Shown here: piece after piece, positions 5,420-55,207 of the stretch
Numbering within the stretch: the first letter of the stretch is position 1
Layout: the number at the start of each line of letters is the position of its first letter
DNA from: Propionibacteriaceae bacterium
Lineage (GTDB): Bacteria; Actinomycetota; Actinomycetes; Propionibacteriales; Propionibacteriaceae
Direction of reading: 5' to 3'
DNA: 64,000 bases
NCBI GenBank assembly: GCA_031271975.1
Contig: JAISUR010000037.1
Span: forward strand, 372,001-436,000
The notes under the pieces: generated by a model
The model's input: only the letters and a program-made list of their open reading frames with translations
Database searches by the model: none
What the model was told of the DNA's origin: nothing
Position numbers and translations under genes: made by a program

Positions 5420-7536
5420 CCGCTGTCTTCAAACGCGAACTGTTCGCGATGCTACACACCGTCACCGGCTGGCTCTATATCGCCGCGACGATCGCGCTGT
5501 TCGGGCTGTTCACCTACGCCATCAACTTCACCTACGGCGATCCGCTGCTTTCCAACACGCTAGGGTCCATCTCCTATCTGATGCTGATCACGGTGCCGGT
5601 GTTGACCATGCGCACCCTGTCCGAGGAACGCCGCTCCAAGACGGACCAACTGCTGCTGACTTCCCCGCTGCCCGTCGGGCGGATGGTGTTGGCCAAGTAC
5701 CTCGCCTTGGCTGTGATCCACTCGGCGGCGGTGTTGATCATGTGTGTGGCGCCGCTGATCATCTTGGGCTCCGGCGGTGGGACGGGGCCGCAGAACTTCG
5801 TTTCGCTGTTGGGCTTTTGGCTGTACGGGATGGGCTGCCTGGCGATCGGCTTGTTCGTCTCCGCATTGTCGGAAAGCCAGGTCATCGCGGCGGTGTTGAC
5901 GTTCGTGTTCCTCTTCTTGGGCTACCTGATGAGTTCGATCACGCAGCTCATCACCGACACCGGATTCCTCGGCACTGCGGTCAAGGCCCTGCTGGGCAGC
6001 TACGACTTGACGACCCCGCTGAACACCTTCTTCGACGGCTGCGTTTCGCTGACCGGCGTCATTTACTACGTCTCGATCAGCGCGCTGTTCGTCTTCCTGG
6101 CGACCCAGGTGATCCAGAAGCGGCGTTGGACGGTCTCCACGAAGAAGCTGTCGCTGAGCGCTTTCTCAGCCGGATTCACCGGCATGGCCGTGGCGCTGGC
6201 CGTATTCGTGAACTTGGCCGCCAACGAGCTGCCGTCCACGATCTCGCAAATCGACGTGACCGCCGCCCAGCTCTATTCGCTCACCGACACGACCACCGCT
6301 TACCTGGGCACACTCGACAAGGACGTGAAGATCTATGTGATCGGCCAAGAGGCGTCTGTGGACACGACGGTGAAGCAAACGCTGCAGAAATACGCTGATT
6401 CTTCCGATCACATCGACGTGGAATACAACGATCCGTATGCGAATCCGACGTTCTACCAGCAGTTCACCTCCGACCAAATCAGCTACGGCTCGCTGATCGT
6501 CGTGTGCGGCGAGCGGTCGAAGGTTATCGACTACAGCTCGCTGTTCGAGTCCGAAATCGACTACGACACGTATCAGAGCACTGTCACCGGCTATGACGGC
6601 GAGGGGCAGATCGACTCGGCGATCCAGTACGTCACCAGCGAGACCCTGCCCGCCCTCTATGCCTTGGAGGGCCACGGCGAGACGGCGCTGTCCGGCAACT
6701 TCAGCGCCGCGGTGGAGAAGGCCAACGCGACCCTCACCACCATCTCGCTGCTGACCACCGACATACCCGAAGACGCGCAGGCCGTCATCGTCAATGGGCC
6801 CACCTCGGATTTGTCCAGCGATGACGCCGACAAGCTCATCAGCTATCTCAATGGCGGCGGGACGTTGCTGGTAACCCTGAACTACGAGGCCGGCCAACTG
6901 CCGAATCTGGGCAAGGTGCTGGCCGAGTTCGAGGTCACGCAGCTTCCCGGGTTGGTCTTCGAGAACGACCAGAGCATGTTCTACCAGCAGCAGTACTACT
7001 TGCTCCCCACCGTGGAATACTCCGACTACACCAAGTCGATCTCGAACCAGCGCGTCTTCCTGCCGTTGTCGCAGGGTTTGGGGCATGCCGACGCTTCCGA
7101 AACTGTGACCTACACGTCCATCCTCACCACGAGCGACTCGGCCGTAGCCAAGGCCGACCTGAACAATGTCACCACGACCGAGTTTGTCGAGGGCGACACC
7201 CGCGGGCCGCTGGACGTGGCTTTGGCGGCTACGAAGACCGTCTCCGACAAGACAGCCACCCTACTGGCCTTCGGCGGCTTCCAAATGTTCACCGACAGCG
7301 CCGACGAGGTCGTCTCCGGCGCCAACTTGACGCTGTTCACAGATACCCTGGCGACCCTGTCGAGCGACGGCGAATCACCCGCCGCGATCGTGGTTCCGGC
7401 GAAGGCCTACGACACTTCCCGGGTGACGATGGACGCCATGGCGGCCCTACTGTGGGGCGCGCTGCTGCTGGCGGTGATCCCGCTGGCGTGCCTCGCCGCG
7501 GGCGTGCTGATCTGGTATCGCAGGAGGAAGTCGTGA
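5416..7536 (+). CDS. ABC permease fused to GldG-like extracytoplasmic domain
   Basis: A 706-residue membrane protein. Residues 1-235 are an ABC-2 permease domain of six helices (GldF-like: [14 protein letters not shown] at the start, the conserved [17 protein letters not shown] loop near 70). A further helix at about 240-265 leads into a large extracytoplasmic region (about 265-670) like GldG/ABC-type uncharacterised transport domains, with [16 protein letters not shown] and a GGGTLLV strand. The chain ends with an anchor helix and RRRKS. In Bacteroidetes GldF and GldG are separate proteins; here they are one chain. The start codon overlaps the ATPase stop by 4 nt. The substrate is unknown. 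Confidence 0.87.
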
Positions 7537-8093
7537 AGAACACCAAGGGCCTCATCGTCGTCGGCGCGCTGCTGGCCGTTTGCATCGCCGCCTATTTCGG
7601 CCTGAGGGCCTGGAACGAGCAAACCGCCGCCGACGAGGAAGCACAGGCCGCCGCCGCCATCGTCTACGTGACGGACATCAGCGCCGACGAGATCACCGCC
7701 TTCGCCTTCGCGGCGGAGGGCCAAACCGTTTCCTTCACCAAGACCGACGACACCTGGACCTACGACGCGGACACTTCCATCGACATAGACGAATCCGCTG
7801 TGACCACGCTGCTGGGGAACTTGGACCACTTGCAGGCCACCCAGGCGGTGACCGCTGAACCGGATGTCGACTACGGCATGGAAACGCCGCAGAACATCAT
7901 CTCTTACACCACTTCGTCCGAGACCGTCAGCCTGCGCGTCGGCATGGCGAACCCAGTCAGCGGCGACTATTACCTGCAGGCGGGCGACAACCTCTATCTG
8001 GTGTCGTCGAGCCTGGTGACGGCGTTCACGACGACAGTCGCCGACCTGACCGTCGTGCCCGAGGAGACCGCGACGCCGACGCCGACACCGTGA
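7533..8093 (+). CDS. DUF4340 domain-containing membrane-anchored protein
   Basis: A 186-residue protein with one N-terminal helix (about residues 6-25) and an exported domain of DUF4340 type, the usual third partner of GldF/GldG-like ABC systems. The GTG start overlaps the permease stop (GTGA) and has a strong AGGAGG at 7522-7527. The C-terminus is a short Thr/Pro run (ATPTPTP). Together with the two upstream genes it forms a three-gene operon. Its role is probably to assist the extracytoplasmic half of the transporter; the molecular activity is not known. Confidence 0.82.
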   Translation: MKNTKGLIVVGALLAVCIAAYFGLRAWNEQTAADEEAQAAAAIVYVTDISADEITAFAFAAEGQTVSFTKTDDTWTYDADTSIDIDESAVTTLLGNLDHLQATQAVTAEPDVDYGMETPQNIISYTTSSETVSLRVGMANPVSGDYYLQAGDNLYLVSSSLVTAFTTTVADLTVVPEETATPTPTP

Positions 8094-8099
8094 ACCGAG

Positions 8100-8675
8100 T
8101 CAGCCCAACGGCCAGGTTTCGACGACATCGTAGACCGAGCCCGAAGGGGTCAATGTGGACTTGACCAGGTGGAACGCGTCCGCCTGGAAATCGAAGCTCC
8201 CGAAGCTCGCCACCACATCCAAAAGGCCGCGCGCCGGTGCGGGCTTGCGGGACCTGGCCAGCGTGATGTGGGCCTGAAACTTCGAACCGTCCGGCCGCAC
8301 ACCCGCCCGCGAGGCGGCCGCCCGTACGTTCGCCGACAGCGGCGCCAACTCGTCGGCCGAGGCCCCCATCCAGACCACCTTGGCCTTGAGGCCGGGTAAG
8401 TCACCGCCGGGATCGCGAATGTCCTCGCGCCGGAACGCTCCAGCGCCGCCCATGCGAATCGGAAAACCAGCCGCCTTGATCGCGCCCAGGTTTTCGCTCA
8501 GCGCATCGCGTCGGTCGTCGTCCACATCCCCCAAGAATGCCAGCGTGATGTGCCAAGTCTCCGGACGCACCCAGCGCCACGGCGGCGTCTGGTCCCGCCT
8601 GGGCCCGATGAAGGCTTCCAGAGCGTCCACCAGCGCGGCAGGCGGGATCACCGCCGCGAACAGCCGCTCAGCCAT
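8100..8675 (-). CDS. thpR: RNA 2',3'-cyclic phosphodiesterase (2H family)
   Basis: A 191-residue 2H phosphoesterase hydrolysing 2',3'-cyclic phosphate ends of RNA (formerly called 2'-5' RNA ligase). Both catalytic HxTx motifs are present, HITL at H42 and HITL at H136. Size and motif spacing fit ThpR. It converges with the DUF4340 gene at 6 nt distance, and its ATG overlaps the end of the sirtuin gene by 8 nt, so it is translated from the sirtuin transcript. Confidence 0.9.
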   Translation of the reverse strand: MAERLFAAVIPPAALVDALEAFIGPRRDQTPPWRWVRPETWHITLAFLGDVDDDRRDALSENLGAIKAAGFPIRMGGAGAFRREDIRDPGGDLPGLKAKVVWMGASADELAPLSANVRAAASRAGVRPDGSKFQAHITLARSRKPAPARGLLDVVASFGSFDFQADAFHLVKSTLTPSGSVYDVVETWPLG

Positions 8676-9390
8676 AGTTGACGAACTCGGCCAACGCCTC
8701 CCCGATCGGCTCGCGGATCGTGAGCGTGGCGCGCGAATCGAAACCGGTGGCGGCCTTGTTGATCAAGACGATTTGGGATCCGCGGAACACGTTGATCAGC
8801 CCCGCCGCCGGATAGACCACCAGTGATGTGCCGCCCACTATCAGCGTGTCCGCCGCCGCGATTTCGTCTACCGCGGCGTCCATGATCGACCCGTCCAGCG
8901 GTTCTTCGTAGAGGACCACGTCCGGCTTGACCAGCCCGCCGCAAGAGTCGCAGTACGGCACCGGGTCCGCCGCCAAGATCACTTCCAGGCCGAACCCCTT
9001 GCGGCACTTCGTGCAGAAGTTGCGCAACACGCTGCCATGCAATTCGAGGACGCGCTGTGACCCGGCGAGTTGGTGCAGCCCGTCGATGTTCTGTGTGACC
9101 ACCGCCGACAGCTTTCCAGCCCGCTCCAGTGCCGCCAGGGCCAAGTGCGCCGAATTCGGTTTGGCGTCGGGATAGATCAAGTTGCGCTTGTAATAGTCGT
9201 AGAAGTCTTTGGTGTGCCGCACGAAGAACGAGTGGCTGATGATCTCCTCCGGGGCGTAGTTGACGCCGGAGGCCTGCTGGTAGAGCCCGCCCGCCGAACG
9301 GAAGTCGGGAATGCCGGATTCGGTGGACACGCCAGCGCCGCCGAAGAACACGATGCGTTTGGATTGATCGATGATCTCGCTCAAAGTCAT
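8668..9390 (-). CDS. cobB: NAD-dependent protein deacylase, Sir2 family
   Basis: A 240-residue sirtuin that removes acyl groups from lysines using NAD. Visible are the NAD loop GAGVSTESGIPDFRS (18-32), TQNIDGLH (99-106), the catalytic H118 in ELHGS, and a zinc site C126-x2-C129 / C147-x2-C150. It is divergent from the ArsR gene (78 nt between them) and followed by ThpR with overlap. A SIR2/ThpR pair suggests an RNA- or acetylation-stress theme, but this is inference. Confidence 0.92.
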   Translation of the reverse strand: MTLSEIIDQSKRIVFFGGAGVSTESGIPDFRSAGGLYQQASGVNYAPEEIISHSFFVRHTKDFYDYYKRNLIYPDAKPNSAHLALAALERAGKLSAVVTQNIDGLHQLAGSQRVLELHGSVLRNFCTKCRKGFGLEVILAADPVPYCDSCGGLVKPDVVLYEEPLDGSIMDAAVDEIAAADTLIVGGTSLVVYPAAGLINVFRGSQIVLINKAATGFDSRATLTIREPIGEALAEFVNYG

Positions 9391-9467
9391 GGCACGAGCC
9401 TAGTGGCATCTGCGAGTTGGAGAACTGCTGGAATTTTCCCCGCAAGCACGGATTCTCGTGTTAGCAT

Positions 9468-9827
9468 ATGCGCATGTCCGAATATGAGCCACTCGACGAC
9501 GACCTGGCAGCCCTGGCCGTAGAGGTCTTCCGAATGCTCGCCGACGGCACCCGCATCCGGTTGCTCTGGGCGTTGACCGCCGGAGAGTTGGACGTGGGCA
9601 CGTTGGCCGCCAAGCTGGGCAAGCCGCAACCCACCGTCTCGCAACACCTGGCCAAGCTGCGCATGGCTCGTTTGGTGCGCGCCCGCCGCGAGGGCGCCCA
9701 GGTGTTCTACTCCCTGGAAAACGAACATGTGCTCCGGCTCGTCATGGACGGCGTCTACAACGCTGAACATGCCCAGCCCGGCACCCCGCGGCACCACGCG
9801 GACTCCGATTTACGGGTGGTGCGCTGA
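9468..9827 (+). CDS. ArsR/SmtB family transcriptional regulator
   Basis: A 119-residue winged-helix repressor. The DNA-recognition helix is in KLGKPQPTVSQHLAKLRMARLV (about 50-70), followed by the wing REGAQVFYSL. There is no cysteine, so the thiol-based As/Cd/Pb site of ArsR or CadC is absent. Histidines H87, H101, H109 and H110 in the last helix and tail could form an SmtB/CzrA-like Zn/Co/Ni site. The gene overlaps a metal exporter by 1 nt (TGATG), supporting metal sensing. The start is ATG at 9468 or the in-frame ATG at 9474; neither has a ribosome-binding site. The region around the start contains the palindrome ATGCGCAT. Confidence 0.87.
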   Translation: MRMSEYEPLDDDLAALAVEVFRMLADGTRIRLLWALTAGELDVGTLAAKLGKPQPTVSQHLAKLRMARLVRARREGAQVFYSLENEHVLRLVMDGVYNAEHAQPGTPRHHADSDLRVVR

Positions 9828-10534
9828 TGGGCCTGCTGGAACTGATGAAGCCCCATGCCCACACCCACGAACACCACGATTTGGCCGACCTGACGGCCGA
9901 AGGAATCAAAGCCGTCAAAGTTTCGCTGGCGGCCCTGCTGGTCACCGCTCTCGCCCAAGCCGGGATTGTGGCGATTTCTGGCTCGATGGCGCTCCTGGCC
10001 GACACCATCCACAACTTCTCGGACGCGCTGACCTCCGTGCCGCTATGGATCGCCTTCTATCTGGCCAAGCGGGCGGGCGCCAAGGACTTCGGACGGCCCG
10101 AACGCGTCGCCGGCTGGATAATCGTCGCCATGATCGGGCTCTCGGCTGCGCTGGCGGTGTGGGAGTCCATCCAGCGACTCATCCACCCTCAGCCGATGAC
10201 CCACTTGCTCTGGGTCGGCGCAGCGGGCGTCGTCGGGTTCCTCGGAAACGAGTTGGTGGCCCTCTACCGGATTCGCGTCGGCCGCCACATCGGCTCGGCC
10301 GCGTTGGTGGCGGACGGGCTGCACGCCCGCACTGACGGCATCACGTCGCTTGCGGTGGTGCTGGGAGCGGTGGCGACGTGGTTGGGCGCCCCGATTCTGG
10401 ACCCGGTGATCGGGCTCGTGATCGGCCTGGCGATCATTTGGATCACGGTCACGGCTGCCCGGGGCCTGCGCCATCCGGAAGACCATCACCACGATCACCC
10501 ACATGACCTGGATCATCTGCACGCGGAGTCCTAG
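9827..10534 (+). CDS. Cation diffusion facilitator transporter, short form
   Basis: A 235-residue CDF exporter, probably for zinc or a related divalent metal, in the cytoplasmic membrane. The two metal-binding half-sites are intact: D59-x2-H62-x3-D66 and D163-x2-H166-x3-D170. The N-terminus (HAHTHEHHD) and C-terminus (HHHDHPHDLDHLH) are His-rich. The usual C-terminal cytoplasmic metallochaperone-like domain of about 80 residues is missing; the chain ends just after the last helix. It is coupled to the ArsR-type regulator upstream, which probably controls it. Confidence 0.9.
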   Translation: MGLLELMKPHAHTHEHHDLADLTAEGIKAVKVSLAALLVTALAQAGIVAISGSMALLADTIHNFSDALTSVPLWIAFYLAKRAGAKDFGRPERVAGWIIVAMIGLSAALAVWESIQRLIHPQPMTHLLWVGAAGVVGFLGNELVALYRIRVGRHIGSAALVADGLHARTDGITSLAVVLGAVATWLGAPILDPVIGLVIGLAIIWITVTAARGLRHPEDHHHDHPHDLDHLHAES

Positions 10535-10688
10535 GCCGCACCACGGCCGTCATCTGGTCGAGATCCACTGAAACCTGGTCGTCTGGCCCTGATCCCGGCA
10601 CGGGGACGACATGGATCTTCTGGCGTTCCTGATCCTGGTGCTCGCGCCAAAAGCGCATTCCCGGATCGAAGACTTCTGTGAAACTCAT
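10449..10688 (-). CDS. Small protein, DUF6191-like
   Basis: A 79-residue protein starting MSFTEVFDPGMRFWREHQ and containing VDLDQMTAVVRP. This layout (a short FxPGxR segment, a charged linker, then a VDLDxxxxVVRP strand) resembles the small actinobacterial DUF6191 proteins of unknown function. The ATG at 10688 has GGGAG 6-7 nt upstream. The 3' end overlaps the convergent CDF gene by 86 nt, so the last 25 or so residues may not be conserved. Family assignment is from memory of the motif, not from a search. Confidence 0.5.
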   Translation of the reverse strand: MSFTEVFDPGMRFWREHQDQERQKIHVVPVPGSGPDDQVSVDLDQMTAVVRPRTPRADDPGHVGDRGDGLPDGAGPGQP

Positions 10689-10719
10689 GTGCGGCTCCCG
10701 TGTCGGAAGCAAATACTAC

Positions 10720-12075
10720 TCACTCGCGGCCCAGCAATCCGCGCAGCACCCTCATGCGCTCGATCATCGCGGCTTCGTTGCCATGATCGGTGGGCTGGTA
10801 GTACTGCGCCGACTCCAGGATGTCTGGAAGGTACTGCTGCGCGGCGACGCCGTGCTCGAAGTCGTGGGCGTACCGGTAGCCGACCCCGTGGCCCAGGCCG
10901 GCGGCAGACGAATAGTGGGCGTCGCGCAGATGCGGGGGCACCTGGCCGACCTTTCCCGCCCGGACGTCCGCCAGGGCGCCGTCGATGGCGTTGATGACGG
11001 CGTTGGACTTGGGCGCCAAGGCCGCCGCGATGGTGGCTTGCGCCAAGTTGAGCCGGGCCTCGGGCATGCCGATCAGCTGCACCGCCTGGGCCGCGGCCAC
11101 ACACGTCTGCAACACGGACGGGGCAGCCATGCCGATGTCCTCGCTGGCCAAGATGATCAGGCGCCGGGCTATGAACCGGGGGTCTTCACCCGCCGCTATC
11201 ATGCGGGCCAGATAGTGCAGGGCAGCCTGCACGTCTGAGCCGCGCACCGACTTGATGAAGGCGCTGATCACGTCGTAGTGCTGGTCCCCGTCGCGGTCGT
11301 AGCGCACCGAAGCCGCCTCCACGGCCAACTCCAGCGCGTGAGAATCGATTTCCACGGATCCGAGGCCGTCGGCGCTTGCCGCAGCCTCTTCGAGATAGGT
11401 CAGCGCGCGGCGGGCGTCTCCCTGGGCCAGCCGGATCAACGTGGCGCGGGCATCTGGGGCCAGAGCGTACTTGCCACCCAGTCCGCGCTCCTCGGCCAAG
11501 GCCCGGTCCACCAGAACGCTGATGTCGTCGTCGGTGAGCGGTTGCAGAGTCAGCAGCAGCGAGCGGGACAGCAGCGGGGAGATCACCGAGAAGGCCGGGT
11601 TCTCCGTGGTGGCGGCGATCAGCGTCACCAGGCGGTTCTCCACCGCCGGCAGCAGCACGTCCTGCTGCGCCTTGGAGAAGCGATGCACCTCGTCTACGAA
11701 AAGCACGGTGGGCCGGCCCCGGCCCAACTCGGCCCGGGCGGTGTCCAACTCGCGGCGGACTTCCTTCACTCCGGCGGTGACGGCCGACAGTTCCACGAAA
11801 CGCCTGCCGTGGGACTGCGAGACTATGGCGGCGATGGTCGTCTTGCCCACGCCCGGAGGTCCCCATAGAAAGACGGACATCGCCTGGTCCGTTTCGGCCA
11901 GCCGCCGCAGCGGAGAGCCCGGCCCGAGCAAGTGCTGTTGCCCGACGAGTTCGCCTATCGTCCTGGGCCGCATGCGGACCGCCAGCGGCTCCCGCCCAGT
12001 CGCGGCACCCGTCAGCGACCCGGAGGATGCGGGAGCGGCCGAAATATTGCCGAATAGGTCCTCGTCCAGTGCCAC
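10720..12075 (-). CDS. rarA: Replication-associated recombination protein RarA (MgsA)
   Basis: A 451-residue AAA+ ATPase acting at stalled replication forks. Walker A is GPPGVGKTT (72-80) and Walker B is LFVDEVH (D128/E129). The C-terminal half contains the RarA-specific region with [26 protein letters not shown] and the tetramerisation part ending in [13 protein letters not shown]. The start is GTG, preceded by GGAGG at only about 2 nt, an unusually tight spacing. It is divergent from the GyrI-like gene. Confidence 0.95.
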
Positions 12076-12200
12076 CCCTCCAGCGTACTAGCGCCCGCGA
12101 GGCGGCGACACTTTGCCGGGTACCCTTGCATCTGTGCGGCATGCTCCCCTACGCTCGTTTTGAGCGGTGGGAACCCCCCGCCCACGCCAAGGGGAACGAA

Positions 12201-12722
12201 GTGCGTATCGAGATTGTGAAGCGGGCCGCCTTCCGGGTTTGCGGCTACGCAGTCACCACGTCGCTGACCCAATATGGGCACGCGCCCGCCCAAAAGGAGC
12301 TTTTCGAAAACTATTTCCGCGATGAACGACCGGCCAACATAGCTGCCGTAGCCGACAACCCGGCCGAGCTGTACGGGTTGGCCTGGCTGGTGACCCGGCC
12401 CGGCGACCGCATCCAGTACCTGCTGGGCTCGGCCGTGACCGGCAATCCCCCGCTGCCAGCCGGCGCGATCATCAAAGAAGTCGCGCCCGCCACCTACGCC
12501 ATGACGCGGCTCGATCCGGAGATGTCGCTGCAGCAAGGGTGGATGGAGTTCTTCTACATCGCCGGCGGGCAAATCGGATACTCCCCGGACTACCACCACG
12601 ACGTCTGGTTCGAGCGGTTGCCCACCGGTGTCCATGGCCCGACCGAGCTGTGGATGGCCGTCACGAACTCCGTGCCGTCCTGGGCCGACCAGCAATCCCT
12701 GCCGGAGTATTTCCGCTTCTAG
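12201..12722 (+). CDS. GyrI-like / effector-binding-domain protein (copy 1)
   Basis: A 173-residue free-standing protein resembling the GyrI/AraC effector-binding fold: an N-terminal strand VRIEIVKRAAFRVCGYAV, a middle domain and the C-terminal strand pair GPTELWMAV. No DNA-binding domain is attached. The GTG start has AGGGGA upstream. It converges with hypE and overlaps its stop by 4 nt. A second protein of the same type lies at 44207-44665, with the same ...PxELWMA ending. These folds bind amphiphilic small molecules or peptides; the ligand here is unknown. Confidence 0.65.
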   Translation: MRIEIVKRAAFRVCGYAVTTSLTQYGHAPAQKELFENYFRDERPANIAAVADNPAELYGLAWLVTRPGDRIQYLLGSAVTGNPPLPAGAIIKEVAPATYAMTRLDPEMSLQQGWMEFFYIAGGQIGYSPDYHHDVWFERLPTGVHGPTELWMAVTNSVPSWADQQSLPEYFRF

Positions 12723-13492
12723 CCGCCGACGCGCACCATTGGGTAGTAGCGCAACACCTGCTCTTTCACGCGGCGCAACGTCTCTTCGGAAGGAGTGGTG
12801 AACGTCTGCGGCTCCAGCCCCAGTCCGGCGAACTTGTTCTGTCCGAGCCGGTGATAGGGCAACAGGTCCACTTCCACGAGTTCGATACTGTGGGTCTTCA
12901 GCCACAGCATGGTCTCCTCGATGACGTCCGCGGAGGTGTTCAGGCCCTCCAAGAGGATCATGCGCAGGTAGATCTTCGCCCGCAGCGAGTTGAGAAACTC
13001 CAGGTTCTTGAGCACTAGGTCGTTGGCCGCCCCGGTCCATTTCTTGTGGTCTTCGCTGGAGATGAACTTCAGGTCGTACAGCCAGAAATCTACGTACTTC
13101 GCGAGTTGGCTGAATCCCGTCTGGGCTGCTACCCCACAGGTGTCGACGCCCAGTGAGATCCCCTTGGCTTTGAGTTGGCGGGCGAGTTCCAGCAGGAAAG
13201 TCCGGTTCTGCGCCATCACCTCGCCACCGGACAGGGTCACCCCGCCACCCGAGTGGTCATAGAACATGACGTCTGACAAAACCTCGCTGACAAGCTCTTC
13301 CACGGTGTACTGCCGGCCGACGAGCTTCTTTTCGCCCTCGGTCACCATCAGCTCCGGCTCGAACAGCTTGGCTTCGGGATTGTGGCACCACGGGCAGTCC
13401 AGCGGGCAGCCCTTGAAGAAGATGGTCGTGCGCAGCCCCGGCCCGTCGTGCATCGAGAACCGTTGGATGTTGAAAACGTAAGGCGCGGACAT
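12719..13492 (-). CDS. hypE: Glycyl-radical enzyme activase (HypE-like)
   Basis: A 257-residue radical SAM enzyme that installs the glycyl radical on its partner. The cluster motif C29-x3-C33-x2-C36 is in GCPLDCPWCHNPE, and SGGGVTLSGGE (81-91) is the glycine-rich SAM loop. The only other cysteine is C119, so the ferredoxin-like insert with extra [4Fe-4S] clusters found in many eliminase activases is absent and the protein is PflA-sized. It is divergent from hypD with 57 nt between the genes, a dedicated pair. By sequence alone it could be called PflA; the partner decides for HypE. Confidence 0.85.
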   Translation of the reverse strand: MSAPYVFNIQRFSMHDGPGLRTTIFFKGCPLDCPWCHNPEAKLFEPELMVTEGEKKLVGRQYTVEELVSEVLSDVMFYDHSGGGVTLSGGEVMAQNRTFLLELARQLKAKGISLGVDTCGVAAQTGFSQLAKYVDFWLYDLKFISSEDHKKWTGAANDLVLKNLEFLNSLRAKIYLRMILLEGLNTSADVIEETMLWLKTHSIELVEVDLLPYHRLGQNKFAGLGLEPQTFTTPSEETLRRVKEQVLRYYPMVRVGG

Positions 13493-13513
13493 AGCGCCCC
13501 AATACTAGCCGTT

Positions 13514-13543
13514 TTCATTTCTGACACATTGTCTCGCTAGATT
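13514..13543 (+). promoter_or_regulatory. Candidate hypD promoter and GACA-N3-TGTC inverted repeat
   Basis: In the 57-nt divergent hypE/hypD gap a -35-like TTCATT (13514-13519) and a -10-like TAGATT (13538-13543) are separated by 18 nt. Between them lies the short inverted repeat GACA-CAT-TGTC (13523-13533), a possible regulator site. Transcription would start within about 7 nt of the -10, at or next to the hypD ATG, so a leaderless mRNA is likely. Confidence 0.4.
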
Positions 13544-13549
13544 GGTGCC

Positions 13550-15964
13550 ATGACGCTCACGTATGCACCTGAGGCAGGCATCGACTGGTCAGCCAAACGC
13601 GGCTCCACGCAACGCACGAAGCGGCTCCGCGAACTCTCCGAGACCACCCGCCCGTCCATCTCGCTGGAGCGGGCCATCATCGAAACGGACGTCTACACCA
13701 AGTACGAGGGCAAGGTGCCCACGCCGGTGCTGCGCGGCATCTTCTTCAAAGAGCTGATGAGCCGCCGCACGCTGTACCTCGGCGACGACGAGTTGATCGT
13801 GGGAGAGAAGGGCACCGGCCCGCAGTCGGCGCCGACCTTCCCGGAGCTTTGCTGCCACACCCTCGAAGACTTCGACAACATGAACAACCGCGAGCGGGTG
13901 TCGTTCGCCGTGACCGAGGCCGACAAGCGCATCCAGGAGCAAGTCATCATCCCGTTCTGGTCGCAGCGCGCCACGATGACCAAGATGTACGCCGCGCTGC
14001 CCGAGGCTTGGCACCTGCTGTTCAACGCGGGCATGTACACCGAGTTCATGGCCCAGCGCGGCCCGGGCCACACGGTCGCGGACGGGAAGATCTACCGCAA
14101 GGGCTACCTGGAGTTCATCGCCGACATCGACGCCCAGATAGCCGCCCTCGATTACGGCCAAGACATGAAAGCGGCCGAGAAACTCGCCGAATGGCAGGGC
14201 ATGCGGCTGGTCTGCGAGGGCATGGTCATCTTGGGCCAGCGTTATGCGGCGCTCGCCCGCCAGCGCGCCGAAGCCGAAGCAGACCCAGTACGCCGGGCGG
14301 AGTTGCTGGAGTTGGCCGAAGTGTGCGACGCGGTCCCAGCGCACGCGCCGACCACCTTCCGCCAAGCCGTGCAGATGTACTGGTTCACGCACATCGGCGT
14401 CACCTCGGAAATGAACAACTGGGACGCGTATTCGCCGGGCAAGCTGGACCAGCATCTGGAGCCGTTCTACCTGGCCGAAACCGCCGCCGGATCCCTGAGC
14501 CGCGAGCAAGCCCGCGAGTACCTGGAGTGCCTGTGGGTCAAGTTCAACAACCAGCCCGCGCCCCCCAAGGTGGGCATCACGCTCAAGGAATCTGCCACCT
14601 ACACCGACTTCTGCAACATAAACACCGGGTCGCTGCGCCCGGACGGCACCTGCGGCGTGAGCGACGTCTCGTACTTGATCCTCGAAGTCATGGACGAGAT
14701 GAAGCTGCTGCAGCCGAGTTCGAACGTGCAGATCTCGCGCAAGTCGCCGGAGCATTTCCTGCGCGAGGCCGTGAAGGTCTCCCGCAAGGGCTGGGGCCAG
14801 CCGGCTTTCTACAACTCGGAGGCCATCCTCGCCGAGTTGGGCAATATGGGCAAGACGCTCGACGACGCCCGCGAGTCGGGGATCGCGTCCGGTTGCGTCG
14901 AGACGGGCGTGGCCGGCAAAGAGGCCTACGTCCTGACCGGGTATTTCAACGTGCCGAAGGTGCTGGAACTGGTGCTCAACCGCGGCTACGACCATTACAC
15001 GGGCAAGCAAGTCGCCCCCGACATGGGCGACCCGCGCCACTTCGCCACCTTCGAGGAGCTTTACGCCGCGTTCGTGCAGATGCTCACCTATGTCGCCGAC
15101 GTCAAGGTGGCGGGCAACAACCTGATCGAGGCGTTGTTCATGTCCACGATGCCGGTACCGCTGCTGTCCGTCATCACCGACGACTGCATCGCCAAGGGCG
15201 TGGACTACAACTGCGGCGGCGCGCGCTACAACACCAGCTACATACAGTGCGTCGGCCCGGCGACGATCACCGATTCGCTGGCCGTGCTGAAGAAGCACGT
15301 CTTTGAGGACCGCACCATGGCCATGGGCGAGATCCTGGCGGCGTGCGACGCCGACTTCGTGGGCTTCGAAGACACCTTCGACACCGTCTTCAACCAAACG
15401 CCCAAGTACGGCAACGACGACGACTACGCCGACAACATCCTCAAGCGCGTGGTGGATTCGCTGCAGAAGGCAATCGCCGGCCGCCCGACGCCCAAAGGGT
15501 CGAAGACCATCGTCGAGTTCCTGCCGACGACCTGCCACGTCTACTTCGGCCAGGTCATGGAAGCTTCGCCGAACGGGCGCCACAAGGCGATTCCGCTGCC
15601 GGACGGTATTTCGCCGGAGAAGGGCGCCGACCGCAACGGGCCCACGGCCGTGATCAAGTCGGCCGCCAAGATCGACCAATTGAAGACGGGCGGCGCGCTG
15701 TTGAACCAGAAGTTCACCCCGTCGGTGATCGCCGGCGACCGCGGCGTGGAAGCCGTGGCCAGCCTGATCCGCACCTACTTCGCCATGGACGGCCACCACC
15801 TGCAGTTCAACGTGGTGGACCGCGCCACGCTGTTGGACGCCCAGGCCCACCCCGACCAGTACCCGGACTTGGTGGTCCGGGTCGCCGGGTATTCCGACTA
15901 CTTCAACAACCTGGACAAGGCCTTGCAAGATGAGATCATCGCCCGGACGGAGCAATCCATCTAA
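13550..15964 (+). CDS. hypD: trans-4-hydroxy-L-proline dehydratase (glycyl radical enzyme)
   Basis: An 804-residue glycyl radical enzyme that eliminates water from trans-4-hydroxy-L-proline to give 1-pyrroline-5-carboxylate. The radical loop RVAGYSDYF places the radical on G780; the thiyl residue is C449 with catalytic-base E451 in SGCVETG, followed by KEAYVLTGYFNVPK. I recognise extended identity to clostridial HypD in blocks such as KFNNQPAPPKVGITLKES, YGNDDDYAD, PTTCHVYFG and DEIIARTEQS. Pyruvate formate-lyase is excluded because it has two adjacent cysteines. About 15 extra residues precede the usual N-terminus. It pairs with the divergent activase and overlaps the downstream serine dehydratase. 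No proC lies in the window. Confidence 0.9.
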   Translation: MTLTYAPEAGIDWSAKRGSTQRTKRLRELSETTRPSISLERAIIETDVYTKYEGKVPTPVLRGIFFKELMSRRTLYLGDDELIVGEKGTGPQSAPTFPELCCHTLEDFDNMNNRERVSFAVTEADKRIQEQVIIPFWSQRATMTKMYAALPEAWHLLFNAGMYTEFMAQRGPGHTVADGKIYRKGYLEFIADIDAQIAALDYGQDMKAAEKLAEWQGMRLVCEGMVILGQRYAALARQRAEAEADPVRRAELLELAEVCDAVPAHAPTTFRQAVQMYWFTHIGVTSEMNNWDAYSPGKLDQHLEPFYLAETAAGSLSREQAREYLECLWVKFNNQPAPPKVGITLKESATYTDFCNINTGSLRPDGTCGVSDVSYLILEVMDEMKLLQPSSNVQISRKSPEHFLREAVKVSRKGWGQPAFYNSEAILAELGNMGKTLDDARESGIASGCVETGVAGKEAYVLTGYFNVPKVLELVLNRGYDHYTGKQVAPDMGDPRHFATFEELYAAFVQMLTYVADVKVAGNNLIEALFMSTMPVPLLSVITDDCIAKGVDYNCGGARYNTSYIQCVGPATITDSLAVLKKHVFEDRTMAMGEILAACDADFVGFEDTFDTVFNQTPKYGNDDDYADNILKRVVDSLQKAIAGRPTPKGSKTIVEFLPTTCHVYFGQVMEASPNGRHKAIPLPDGISPEKGADRNGPTAVIKSAAKIDQLKTGGALLNQKFTPSVIAGDRGVEAVASLIRTYFAMDGHHLQFNVVDRATLLDAQAHPDQYPDLVVRVAGYSDYFNNLDKALQDEIIARTEQSI

Positions 15965-20807: not shown

Positions 20808-21597
20808 GACTCCGCGCGACACGCTGCTGGAAGTGCGCGACCTGGTGCTCCGCTTTGGCGGCGTCGTCGCCGTCGACGGCCTGAACATGAGCGTCCACGC
20901 CGGCGAGATCGTCTCCGTCATCGGGCCGAACGGGGCCGGCAAGACGTCCGCGTTCAACTGCATCTCCGGCTTCTACCGGGCCAACTCCGGCTCGATCCGC
21001 TTCCTGGGCCAGTCGATCCTGCGCCGCCAGCCGTCCACGATCACCAAGATGGGCATGGCGCGCACTTTCCAGAACCTGCGCCTGTTCAAGGAGATGTCCA
21101 TCCTGGACAACGTCAAGACGGGCGCGCACTACCGGATGAAGCAGCACTGGTTCGACGCGCTGCTGCACACGCCGGCGTACGGCAAGTCCGAGCGCGAGTG
21201 CGAGGATGACGCGCGCTACTGGCTCGATTTCGTCGGCTTCAAGGGCGACACCAGCATGTATGTGACCGCGCTCCCCTATGGTGAACAGCGCCGCGTGGAG
21301 ATCGCCCGCGCGTTGATGACCAAGCCGCGCGTGCTGATGCTCGATGAGCCTGCCGCCGGGTTGAACCATTCCGAGAAGCAGGGCCTGATCGAGCTGATCC
21401 GCCGCATCCAGGCGCTCGGCATTTCGATCGTGCTGATCGAACACGACATGGGCTTGGTGATGGACATCTCCGAACGCATCATCGTGCTCAACTACGGCAA
21501 AGAGATCGCCGACGGGACGCCGGACGAGATCCGCAACGACCCGCTCGTCGTCGAGGCGTATCTGGGCACCGACGAAGACGAGGAGGACGCCGAATGA
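20800..21597 (+). CDS. livG: Branched-chain-amino-acid-type ABC ATPase LivG
   Basis: A 265-residue ATPase. Walker [10 protein letters not shown] (42-50), the LivG-type signature LPYGEQRRVEIARAL and Walker B VLMLDEPAAGLNHSE are present. It overlaps livM by 8 nt and livF by 4 nt (ATGA), so all are translated together. The C-terminus is acidic (DEDEEDAE). Confidence 0.94.
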   Translation: MSETPRDTLLEVRDLVLRFGGVVAVDGLNMSVHAGEIVSVIGPNGAGKTSAFNCISGFYRANSGSIRFLGQSILRRQPSTITKMGMARTFQNLRLFKEMSILDNVKTGAHYRMKQHWFDALLHTPAYGKSERECEDDARYWLDFVGFKGDTSMYVTALPYGEQRRVEIARALMTKPRVLMLDEPAAGLNHSEKQGLIELIRRIQALGISIVLIEHDMGLVMDISERIIVLNYGKEIADGTPDEIRNDPLVVEAYLGTDEDEEDAE

Positions 21598-22307
21598 GTT
21601 GGCTGGAAGTCTCCGGAGTCGACGTCCATTACGGGCGCATTCAGGCGCTGCGCGGCCTGTCCTTCGGCGTGGACCAGGGCGAGATCGTCTCTCTGCTCGG
21701 CAACAACGGCGCCGGCAAGTCCACCACGCTGAACATGCTCTCGGGCATCTTGCGGCCTACCGCGGGCACGGTCACCTGGCAGGGCGAAGACTTGGCCAAA
21801 GTGCCCCCGCACGACCTGGTGGCGCGCGGCATCGTGCAGGTGCCGGAAGGACGGCGCATTTTCTCGACCATGAAAGTCGAGGAGAACTTGCTGCTGGGCG
21901 GCTACCGAGTCTCGAACACGAAGCTGATCGCCCAGCGCATCGACATGGTCTACGACATGATGCCCCGCCTCAAGGAGCGCCGCAACCAAGAGGGCGGCAC
22001 GCTGTCCGGCGGCGAACAGCAGATGCTGGCCATCGGCCGCGCCCTAATCTCCGAGCCGCAACTCCTGCTGCTTGACGAGCCCAGCATGGGCCTGGCCCCG
22101 CTGATGGTCCGCGAAGTGATGAACATCATCAACCAGGTCAACGCCACCGGCACAACCGTCCTGATCGTCGAGCAGAACGCCAAGGCCGCCCTGCGCATCG
22201 CCAACCGCGCCTACGTCCTGGAAACCGGCTCAGTCACGCTCTCCGGCCCAGCCTCCGAACTCGCCAAGGACCCCCGCGTCGTCGAGGCCTACCTGGGCAC
22301 CGACTAA
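21594..22307 (+). CDS. livF: Branched-chain-amino-acid-type ABC ATPase LivF
   Basis: A 237-residue ATPase and last gene of the operon. Walker A GNNGAGKST (37-45), signature LSGGEQQML and Walker B LLLLDEPSMGLAP are complete, with the LivF-typical GRRIFSTMKVEENLLLG. The operon ends here; the next 399 nt carry only repeats. Confidence 0.94.
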   Translation: MSWLEVSGVDVHYGRIQALRGLSFGVDQGEIVSLLGNNGAGKSTTLNMLSGILRPTAGTVTWQGEDLAKVPPHDLVARGIVQVPEGRRIFSTMKVEENLLLGGYRVSNTKLIAQRIDMVYDMMPRLKERRNQEGGTLSGGEQQMLAIGRALISEPQLLLLDEPSMGLAPLMVREVMNIINQVNATGTTVLIVEQNAKAALRIANRAYVLETGSVTLSGPASELAKDPRVVEAYLGTD

Positions 22308-22334
22308 GCCCCCAGCGCCGTCATCCCGGACTCG

Positions 22335-22463
22335 TTCCGGGGTCCCCGCAAAGTATCGAAGAACTTTGCGGGGTGGGTTCCGGGGTCCCCGCAAAGTATC
22401 GAAGAACTTTGCGGGGTGGGTTCCGGGGTCCGAGCAAAGTATCGAAGAACTTTGCGGGGTGGG
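22335..22463. repeat. Three tandem 43-bp hairpin units
   Basis: Copies start at 22335, 22378 and 22421 with an exact 43-bp period. Each carries an 11-bp inverted repeat CCCCGCAAAGT / ACTTTGCGGGG around an 8-nt loop ATCGAAGA; in the third copy the left arm is degenerate. A related hairpin lies at 35306-35362. Confidence 0.9.
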
Positions 22464-22485
22464 TTCCGGGATCAAACCCCACCCG

Positions 22486-22596
22486 GTCATCCCGGACTTG
22501 TTCCGGGATCTTGGGACGAAGTCCCATGCACCCCGCAGGGGTGCCCTAACGGGCACACGGACTACGTCCGAGATCCCGGAACAAGCCCGGGATGAC
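22486..22596. repeat. 111-bp MITE/REP-like element with 26-bp terminal inverted repeats
   Basis: The ends GTCATCCCGG... and ...CCGGGATGAC are perfectly complementary and the complementarity runs 26 bp with a single mismatch. Inside are three more hairpins: GGGACGAAGTCCC, a GTGCCC/GGGCAC stem and GGACTACGTCC. Related copies are at 35206-35304 (right end truncated) and 46906-46948 (left end only). No coding capacity. Confidence 0.88.
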
Positions 22597-22706
22597 GAGA
22601 TCGGGATCTCGCACGCAGTGCGGTCCCAGCCCACCAACAACCGGGCTGCGTCCCAGATCCCGGAACAGGTCCGGGATGACCGATCTGAGGGCACTTCTTG
22701 GGCCAC

Positions 22707-23393
22707 TCAGAACAGCCGGTCTTCGGCGTTGTCCAGGCCGCGCAGGGCGTCGTAGTCCACCAATACACACTCGATGCCGCGGGTGCCGGCCAGGGTCTTG
22801 GCTTGGGGCTTGATGAGTTGGGCGGCGAAGACGCCGCGCACTGGGGCCAGCAGCGGATCGGCGTTCATCAGTTCCAGGTAGCGGCCCAGTTGTTCCACGC
22901 CGTCGATTTCGCCGCGGCGTTTGACCTCCACCGCCACGTAGGCGCCCATGGCGTCGCGCAGCAGCAGGTCGACAGGGCCGATGGGAGTCAGGTATTCGCG
23001 CTGGACCAGTTGCCAGCCGGGGCCGAAGGTGCTGGGGTTCTCGGCCAACAGGGCTTGCAGGTGCGCCTCCACGCCATCTTTGGTCAGGCCCGGATCCACG
23101 CCCAACTCGTGGGAGTCGTCGGCCGCGACTTCCCCCAGCAGGATCCGCAGCGTGTCGGCGCCGTTGGAGACTTCCCAGACGGCCGTCGCCTGCGGCGGGT
23201 CATCGGCATCCGGCTGCGACACGGCCAAGGTGCAGGGTGCGCTCATCCAGTTCAGCGGCTTGTAGGCGCGGTCGTCCGCGTGCACGGAAACGGAGCCGTC
23301 TGCTTTGACCATGATCAGCCGTTTGGCCCAGGGCAGGTGCGCCGACAGCCGCCCGGCGTAGTCCACCTGGCATTCGGCGATCAGCAAGCGCAT
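22707..23393 (-). CDS. nucS: Endonuclease NucS (EndoMS), mismatch-specific
   Basis: A 228-residue nuclease of the non-canonical mismatch repair of Actinobacteria and Archaea. The catalytic PD-(D/E)xK core is seen at D142 ([11 protein letters not shown]) and E156-x-K158 (VAVEVKRRG). The extreme C-terminus EDRLF fits the beta-clamp-binding tail of actinobacterial NucS. The ATG chosen gives the conserved [16 protein letters not shown] start; the open frame further upstream overlaps the divergent neighbour and is not conserved-looking. It converges with livF across the repeat block. Confidence 0.93.
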
Positions 23394-35171: not shown

Positions 35172-35304
35172 GTCATGCCGAACTCGTTCCCGGCACACCC
35201 CACCCGTCATGCCGGACTTGTTCCGGCATCTTGGGACGAAGTCCCATGCGCGCCGCAGGCGTGCCCTTGCCAGGGCACACGGACTACGTCCGAGATCCCG
35301 GAAC
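35172..35304. repeat. Second locus of the MITE/REP-like element
   Basis: A short left-end fragment (GTCATGCCGAACTCG, from 35172) is followed at 35206 by a 99-bp copy of the 22486 element. It carries the same order of internal hairpins (GGGACGAAGTCCC, GTGCCC...GGGCAC, GGACTACGTCC) and stops after AGATCCCGGAAC, so its right terminal repeat is truncated. Confidence 0.85.
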
Positions 35305-35305
35305 A

Positions 35306-35362
35306 CCACCCCGCAAAGTACCGGACTGGAGCGCAGCGGAAGGAGGACACTTTGTGGGGTGG
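35306..35362 (-). terminator. Inverted repeat after the ATP synthase/DUF2550 operon
   Basis: CCACCCCGCAAAGT and ACTTTGTGGGGTGG pair over 14 bp (one mismatch) around a 29-nt loop. It begins directly at the DUF2550 stop and matches the arms of the 43-bp units at 22.3 kb. It probably acts as the operon's transcript end, though no T-run follows. Confidence 0.5.
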
Positions 35363-46905: not shown

Positions 46906-46948
46906 GTCATCCCGGACTTGTTCCGGGATCTGGGGACGCAGTCCGGCT
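46906..46948. repeat. Third locus of the MITE/REP-like element (left end)
   Basis: GTCATCCCGGACTTG...GGGATCT, identical to the first 26 bp of the 22486 element, followed by GGGGACGCAGTCC, a variant of its first internal hairpin. The sequence then runs into the 3' end of the sugar-phosphate transferase gene, whose stop codon lies within the repeat. Confidence 0.85.
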
Positions 46949-55135: not shown

Positions 55136-55207
55136 CGCCCCTAGTAGGATTCGAACCTACGCTCCCGCCTCCGGAGGGCGGTGCTCTATCCCCTGAGCTA
55201 TAGGGGC
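55136..55207 (-). tRNA. tRNA-Arg (anticodon CCG)
   Basis: On the minus strand a full cloverleaf can be drawn: acceptor GCCCCTA/TAGGGGC, D arm GCTC...GAGC, anticodon stem CCGCC/GGCGG with loop CTCCGGA (anticodon CCG, reading CGG), and T arm with GGTTCGAATCC. Discriminator is G; the 3' CCA is not encoded. It is transcribed toward lysA. Confidence 0.95.

Follow-up and report, generated by a model that had tools for sequence, protein, structure and literature searches.

The palindromic repeats in the window, by which we mean the whole 64,000-nucleotide stretch of DNA analysed here, are best explained as a CGTC-tagged REP family, that is, multiplying non-autonomous repeats made up of short non-coding hairpins, and we put the probability of this reading at about 0.8. 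An earlier note had taken the 111-bp unit for a MITE-like element with terminal repeats; it consists of two REPs in inverted orientation, a dimer, around a structured spacer, and the 43-bp units next to it are a second hairpin that is tandemly expanded inside the REP and occurs only beside REPs. CGTC-tagged REPs are a superfamily described by Di Nocera et al. in 2013 with families CGTC-1 to CGTC-4, and the phyla in that survey are Proteobacteria, Chlorobi, Bacteroidetes, Spirochaetes and Thermotogae; Actinomycetota is not among them (PMC3733652). These REPs have been known since 2013 with no known mobiliser, and the genus described here, which belongs to a phylum not listed in the survey, ranges from 0 to about 311 copies between species. 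The features of the window that concern the repeats are as follows.

21594–22307, plus strand: LivF-type ABC transporter ATPase gene, with the array at its 3' end
22320–22344, plus strand: CGTC-REP arm, the 25-nt hairpin GTCATCCCGGACTCGTTCCGGGGTC, at the left end of the array, with the 43-bp hairpin array directly after it
22334–22473, plus strand: three tandem 43-bp units, each the module A hairpin CCCCGCAAAGTATCGAAGAACTTTGCGGGG with the repeated GTTCCGGGGTC of the arm
22477–22485, plus strand: 9-nt lead rich in C, CCCCACCCG, as is usual at the tagged end of each arm
22486–22510, plus strand: CGTC-REP arm, the left half of a head-to-head dimer
22511–22571, plus strand: structured spacer with the small hairpins GGGAC-gaa-GTCCC, ACCCC-gca-GGGGT and GGAC-tac-GTCC
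22572–22596, minus strand: CGTC-REP arm, the right half of the dimer
22656–22680, minus strand: additional CGTC-REP arm in this array, which has a second hairpin of its own
22707–23393, minus strand: convergent gene to the right of the array
35206–35310, plus strand: G-type arm (GTCATGCCGG..CCGGCATC) and spacer hairpins, with the right arm cut off
35308–35362, plus strand: module A hairpin, long-loop version
46906–46930, plus strand: single CGTC-REP arm that overlaps the 3' end of a minus-strand gene

The whole array (22320–22680) fills the gap between the LivF-type gene and the convergent gene. The earlier note had placed it at 22335–22596; repeats are present there, but the array is larger, with extra arms at 22320–22344 and 22656–22680. 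The 111-bp unit itself (22486–22596) is as the note had it, with 26-nt inverted ends (22486–22511 and 22571–22596) that differ by one mismatch and with smaller hairpins nested inside. The three 43-bp units are also present, but the 11-bp stem ascribed to all of them is perfect in only two; the third (22420–22462) has 7 perfect pairs followed by two mismatches. Both repeat types do recur at 35.2–35.4 kb (35206–35362), as a composite lacking its right arm and a long-loop 43-bp hairpin, and the end of the larger unit reported at 46.9 kb is a single arm; our own codon-usage gene calls bear out that all three sites lie at the 3' ends of genes. No such hairpin is present at the livF orthologue locus in the seven nearest genus orthologues. 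The nearest LivF (80%) is from the MAG Gx481_bin65, Propionibacteriaceae, and the host most likely belongs to this family. A search of the window against Rfam gave no match to the repeats, and the sole match in the window is a tRNA gene on the minus strand at 55136–55207. A literature search by sequence string returned only unrelated matches.

The source genome (G000; 2.70 Mb in 49 contigs, 99.86% complete) contains 289 copies of the 25-nt arm hairpin with at most two mismatches (147 + 142) and 71 copies of the 43-bp core (32 + 39), 56 of them exact, and the reversed-pattern controls gave 0 in both cases. Such numbers are far above chance, and the repeats are real. Their density along the genome is very uneven: contig C9 (L038–L047) is almost free of them across most of its first 200 kb, and C16, C32 and C33 have dense stretches. 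Composition statistics were taken from a 463-kb sample of this genome that was partly picked for repeat-rich stretches, the resulting bias in orientation classes being expected to be small; the sample holds 94 arms in 41 clusters.

The unit in the source genome has a lead, rich in C and about 9 nt long, then the C-GTC tag, and then a stem of 8 bp (ATCCCGGA/TCCGGGAT) with a 5-nt loop, either CTTGT or CTCGT. Most units have a second hairpin after the arm, and its sequence is variable (GGGAC/GTCCC, CGGAC/GTCCG or CGCAC/GTGCG). The GTC of the tag is near-invariant, and C precedes it in 82% of the 60 outer units from G000 and in 63 of 78 units from G009, a repeat-rich genome of the same genus. At the start of the stem, pair 4–24 is A:T in 81 of 94 arms and pair 5–23 is T:A in 82 of 94 (G000 sample). 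The tail is C followed by TC or TT in G000 and is TC in 75–76 of the 78 units of G009, where 6-nt loops are also present beside the 5-nt form. The 43-bp unit consists of a second hairpin, module A, inserted after the arm, with the GTTCCGGGGTC half common to both. Among the 20 CAAAGT..ACTTTG hairpins of the G000 sample, 19 lie within 100 bp of an arm; the twentieth is far from any arm and is without the flanking sequence.

An arm may stand alone, be joined head to head with another around a structured spacer of mostly 46–65 nt, or belong to a head-to-tail array with a period of 33–39 bp. The pairs in the G000 sample comprise 15 head-to-head, 4 tail-to-tail and 30 head-to-tail, and of the 25 pairs in G009 (L169–L208), which have mixed loop types, 17 are tail-to-tail and 6 head-to-head. 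In a set of 27 distinct sequences of the arm, drawn from G000, its genus and a viral-contig hit, 95.8% of stem cells are paired, changes on both sides are seen at three pairs, and the covariation score is 0.208 as compared with 0.084 for shuffled sequences. Pair 6–22 is C:G in 59 and G:C in 32 of the 94 arms of the G000 sample, and 11 of the 15 dimers join a C-type to a G-type arm, against 6.8 expected by random pairing (p ~0.03, a small sample). The conserved element is the hairpin and not the long inverted repeat. Because these 11 dimers have arms of different type, the near-perfect 26-bp ends of the window copy are an exception within the family.

Published CGTC REPs have an 8–9-bp stem that starts with AT, a loop of 4–5 nt and in most, not all, cases a CCA tail; they form structured-spacer dimers, among which mismatched dimers are common and the head-to-head arrangement predominates, and clusters are rare (PMC3733652). 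The repeats in G000 share with them the C-GTC tag, the 8-bp stem starting with AT, the 5-nt loop, structured-spacer dimers that are frequently mismatched, the location at gene 3' ends and, in searches for Y1 and IS110 genes, the lack of a flanking transposase. They differ in having a C-T-C/T tail rather than CCA, which is not strictly defining, and in their conserved C-rich lead of 9 nt, frequent tandem arrays and nested module A; the related genome G009 differs further in the predominance of tail-to-tail pairs. By stem and loop length the closest family is CGTC-2, and the layout of the spacer resembles that of the Agrobacterium tumefaciens CGTC-3 dimers as described (PMC3733652). A further likeness is to Neisseria dRS3/NIME, which the same survey assigns to CGTC-1 (PMC3733652), in the mosaic intergenic arrays where tagged hairpins are interleaved with other repeat blocks, but the sequences of the stem, loop and spacer and the phylum all differ.

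In a sample of 296 Actinomycetota genomes, only G000 has more than two hairpin-framework matches, and the other 295 have at most 2 each. Within the genus (30 genomes, mostly draft assemblies), the counts are 311 in G018, 239 in G000, 153 in G009, 103 in G005, 48 in G021 and 13 in G012, and 0–2 in the other 24. The repeat-rich genomes are scattered on a single-gene LysS tree, the well-supported branches of which require five changes or more. Loops are species-specific in sequence: a GTTCC form that is common in G000 is all but missing from the other genomes, and other loops are found in G009. The site 3' of lysS is occupied only in G000 among the 30 genomes. Nine repeat sites of G009 can be aligned on both flanks with its copy-poor sister species G010, which has 2 copies; eight of these are hairpin-free in G010, which supports recent spread, and the ninth has a diverged copy. 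With the polarity of gain and loss unrooted by an outgroup, the pattern is best read as repeated recent gains. The suggestion in the earlier note that a REP-type family is spreading in this genome is upheld by the copy number, the lineage-specific loop, the scattered presence in the genus and the empty sites in the sister species.

If the unit were a MITE, its 26-bp terminal inverted repeats would be recognised by a DDE-type transposase and it would move by cut-and-paste with target-site duplication. The near-perfect inverted ends and compact 111-bp length of the window copy fit this, full-length copies are numerous, and MITEs such as NEMIS/Correia are likewise compact, with inverted ends of about 26 bp like those of some copies here. 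However, the ends are unmatched in most copies, the arms vary independently while the hairpin of each is kept by compensatory changes, and single arms make up many of the copies. The flanks of 17 G009 pairs gave no match of 4 bp or more, and there was no excess of 4–7-bp flanking matches in 15 G000 dimers; the empty-site junctions between G009 and G010 are too diverged for a firm duplication test. One 7-bp direct duplication, TCATCGG, bounds a repeat block in G009 (contig C33; L190, 2150–2430), and the empty G010 site has just one copy of it. This is an isolated case, adjacent to a start codon. Because the arms mismatch and target-site duplications were not found, a MITE recognised by its ends is very improbable. 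REPINs mobilised by RAYT (GTAG REPs) are also similar, in their inverted hairpin pairs of about 100 bp, their short 5' tag followed by a hairpin, their 3' location, their population-like amplification and the lack of target-site duplication, and Y1 genes are present in 14 of the 30 genus genomes, so that the Y1 transposase of such a population might have been lost from the G000 assembly or missed in it. Against this, PF01797 gave 0 matches to a Y1 (RAYT/IS200) gene in G000 and G009, both of which are essentially complete and repeat-rich, although a gene in an assembly gap is possible; Y1 genes occur in the genus irrespective of repeat number; and no hairpin lies within 1.5 kb of the 10 genus Y1 loci examined. 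The tag, moreover, is CGTC and not GTAG. The survey that defined the CGTC REPs contains no RAYT flanked by them and names no dedicated transposase for them, and their possible extinction was raised there (PMC3733652). The matching RAYT that the earlier note had envisaged was thus not found, Y1/RAYT was rejected as the mobiliser, and we consider a RAYT-mobilised population rather unlikely.

Placement bears on another explanation, in which the hairpins are selected terminators or mRNA-stabilising structures that were amplified for their usefulness at gene 3' ends. By our own gene calls, clusters are found in 14 of 50 convergent gaps and in 23 of 246 other gaps of the G000 sample (p = 0.0015), although convergent and divergent gaps compared alone do not differ significantly (p = 0.16), and the median distance is 52 bp to stop codons and 126 bp to start codons. 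The 111-bp dimer would also fold very stably as RNA from either strand (−80 and −89 kcal/mol, z ~−12). A single suggestive case is the G029 orthologue of livF, whose 3' end, at the position of the G000 array, has an ordinary hairpin with TTTCTTTT after it and no repeat. However, there is no T-tract signal after the hairpins, with one weak match in the array region as compared with 0.6 expected and no enrichment in the G000 sample. Sites with repeats do not have fewer classical terminators (6/28) than those without (8/72; not significant), copies are found in divergent gaps too, and the patchy distribution within the genus speaks against a required function. The placement is equally well accounted for by weak purifying selection against insertion at other sites. 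The earlier suggestion that the repeats might double as terminators is compatible with their location, but the T-tract signal is missing, and amplification for such a role is unlikely. The repeats might instead have multiplied with no mobility, by ectopic recombination and replication slippage, with stem compensation arising from hairpin-templated mutation and not from function. Local head-to-tail arrays of exact 33–38-bp and 43-bp units do show active slippage, and paired stem changes alone are no proof of selection, because hairpin-templated correction could also make them. Hundreds of copies at unrelated single sites and the empty sites in the sister species, however, need dispersal beyond local slippage, and this explanation has little chance of being correct.

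For a CGTC-tagged REP family, the design of a tag plus a hairpin, together with the lack of duplicated target sites, suggests that new copies would arise via a hairpin intermediate in single-stranded form, on which an enzyme would act in trans. This enzyme would not be a Y1 transposase now visible in G000. Arrays would grow by slippage, and mismatched dimers would be favoured since perfect long palindromes are removed. Copies would survive mainly where they are least harmful, just past stop codons and between convergent genes, and those that are transcribed would give strong 3' hairpins with a possible effect on mRNA ends. The transposase and nuclease families searched were PF01797, PF01548 and PF04480. 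The IS110 family, which had no match in G000 or G009, was rejected as the mobiliser. An association known for the DUF559 nuclease was the basis for trying it in this role, and it was likewise set aside: none is present in G000, and its presence elsewhere does not track repeat number. We suggest tentatively, as possible rather than probable, that CGTC REPs are moved by a still-undescribed enzyme distinct from RAYT, in view of the recent, repeated and species-specific bursts in nearly complete genomes with no detected Y1 gene. If this is true, a comparison of repeat-rich with repeat-poor sister species would let the mobiliser gene be found by its presence or absence. The sister pair G009 and G010, with 153 and 2 copies and empty sites at orthologous positions, allows a direct test of what moves CGTC REPs through the gene content of a few closed genomes.

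Two further observations concern the lysS locus. The lysS 3' flanks of several genus relatives (L148, L149, L152, L154 and L157) contain another repeat, palindromic and of the GGGGACAGGTACCTTTTCGTTCA type, with no relation to the CGTC hairpins. Upstream of lysS, both G000 and G018 (L139, L152) have hairpins at a similar distance, about 240 bp, and of different loop type, and these represent either a shared old site or a preferred target. The plasmid and phage records searched gave no match. Among viral contigs there was one exact match, L098 (IMG/VR, 14620 bp), in which positions 5528–14054 contain ten hairpins of the framework GTCATCCCGG..CCGGGATC. This region looks like an alphaproteobacterial gene-transfer agent or prophage, and one of its hairpins, GTCATCCCGGACTTGATCCGGGATC, is identical to copies in the genus relatives.
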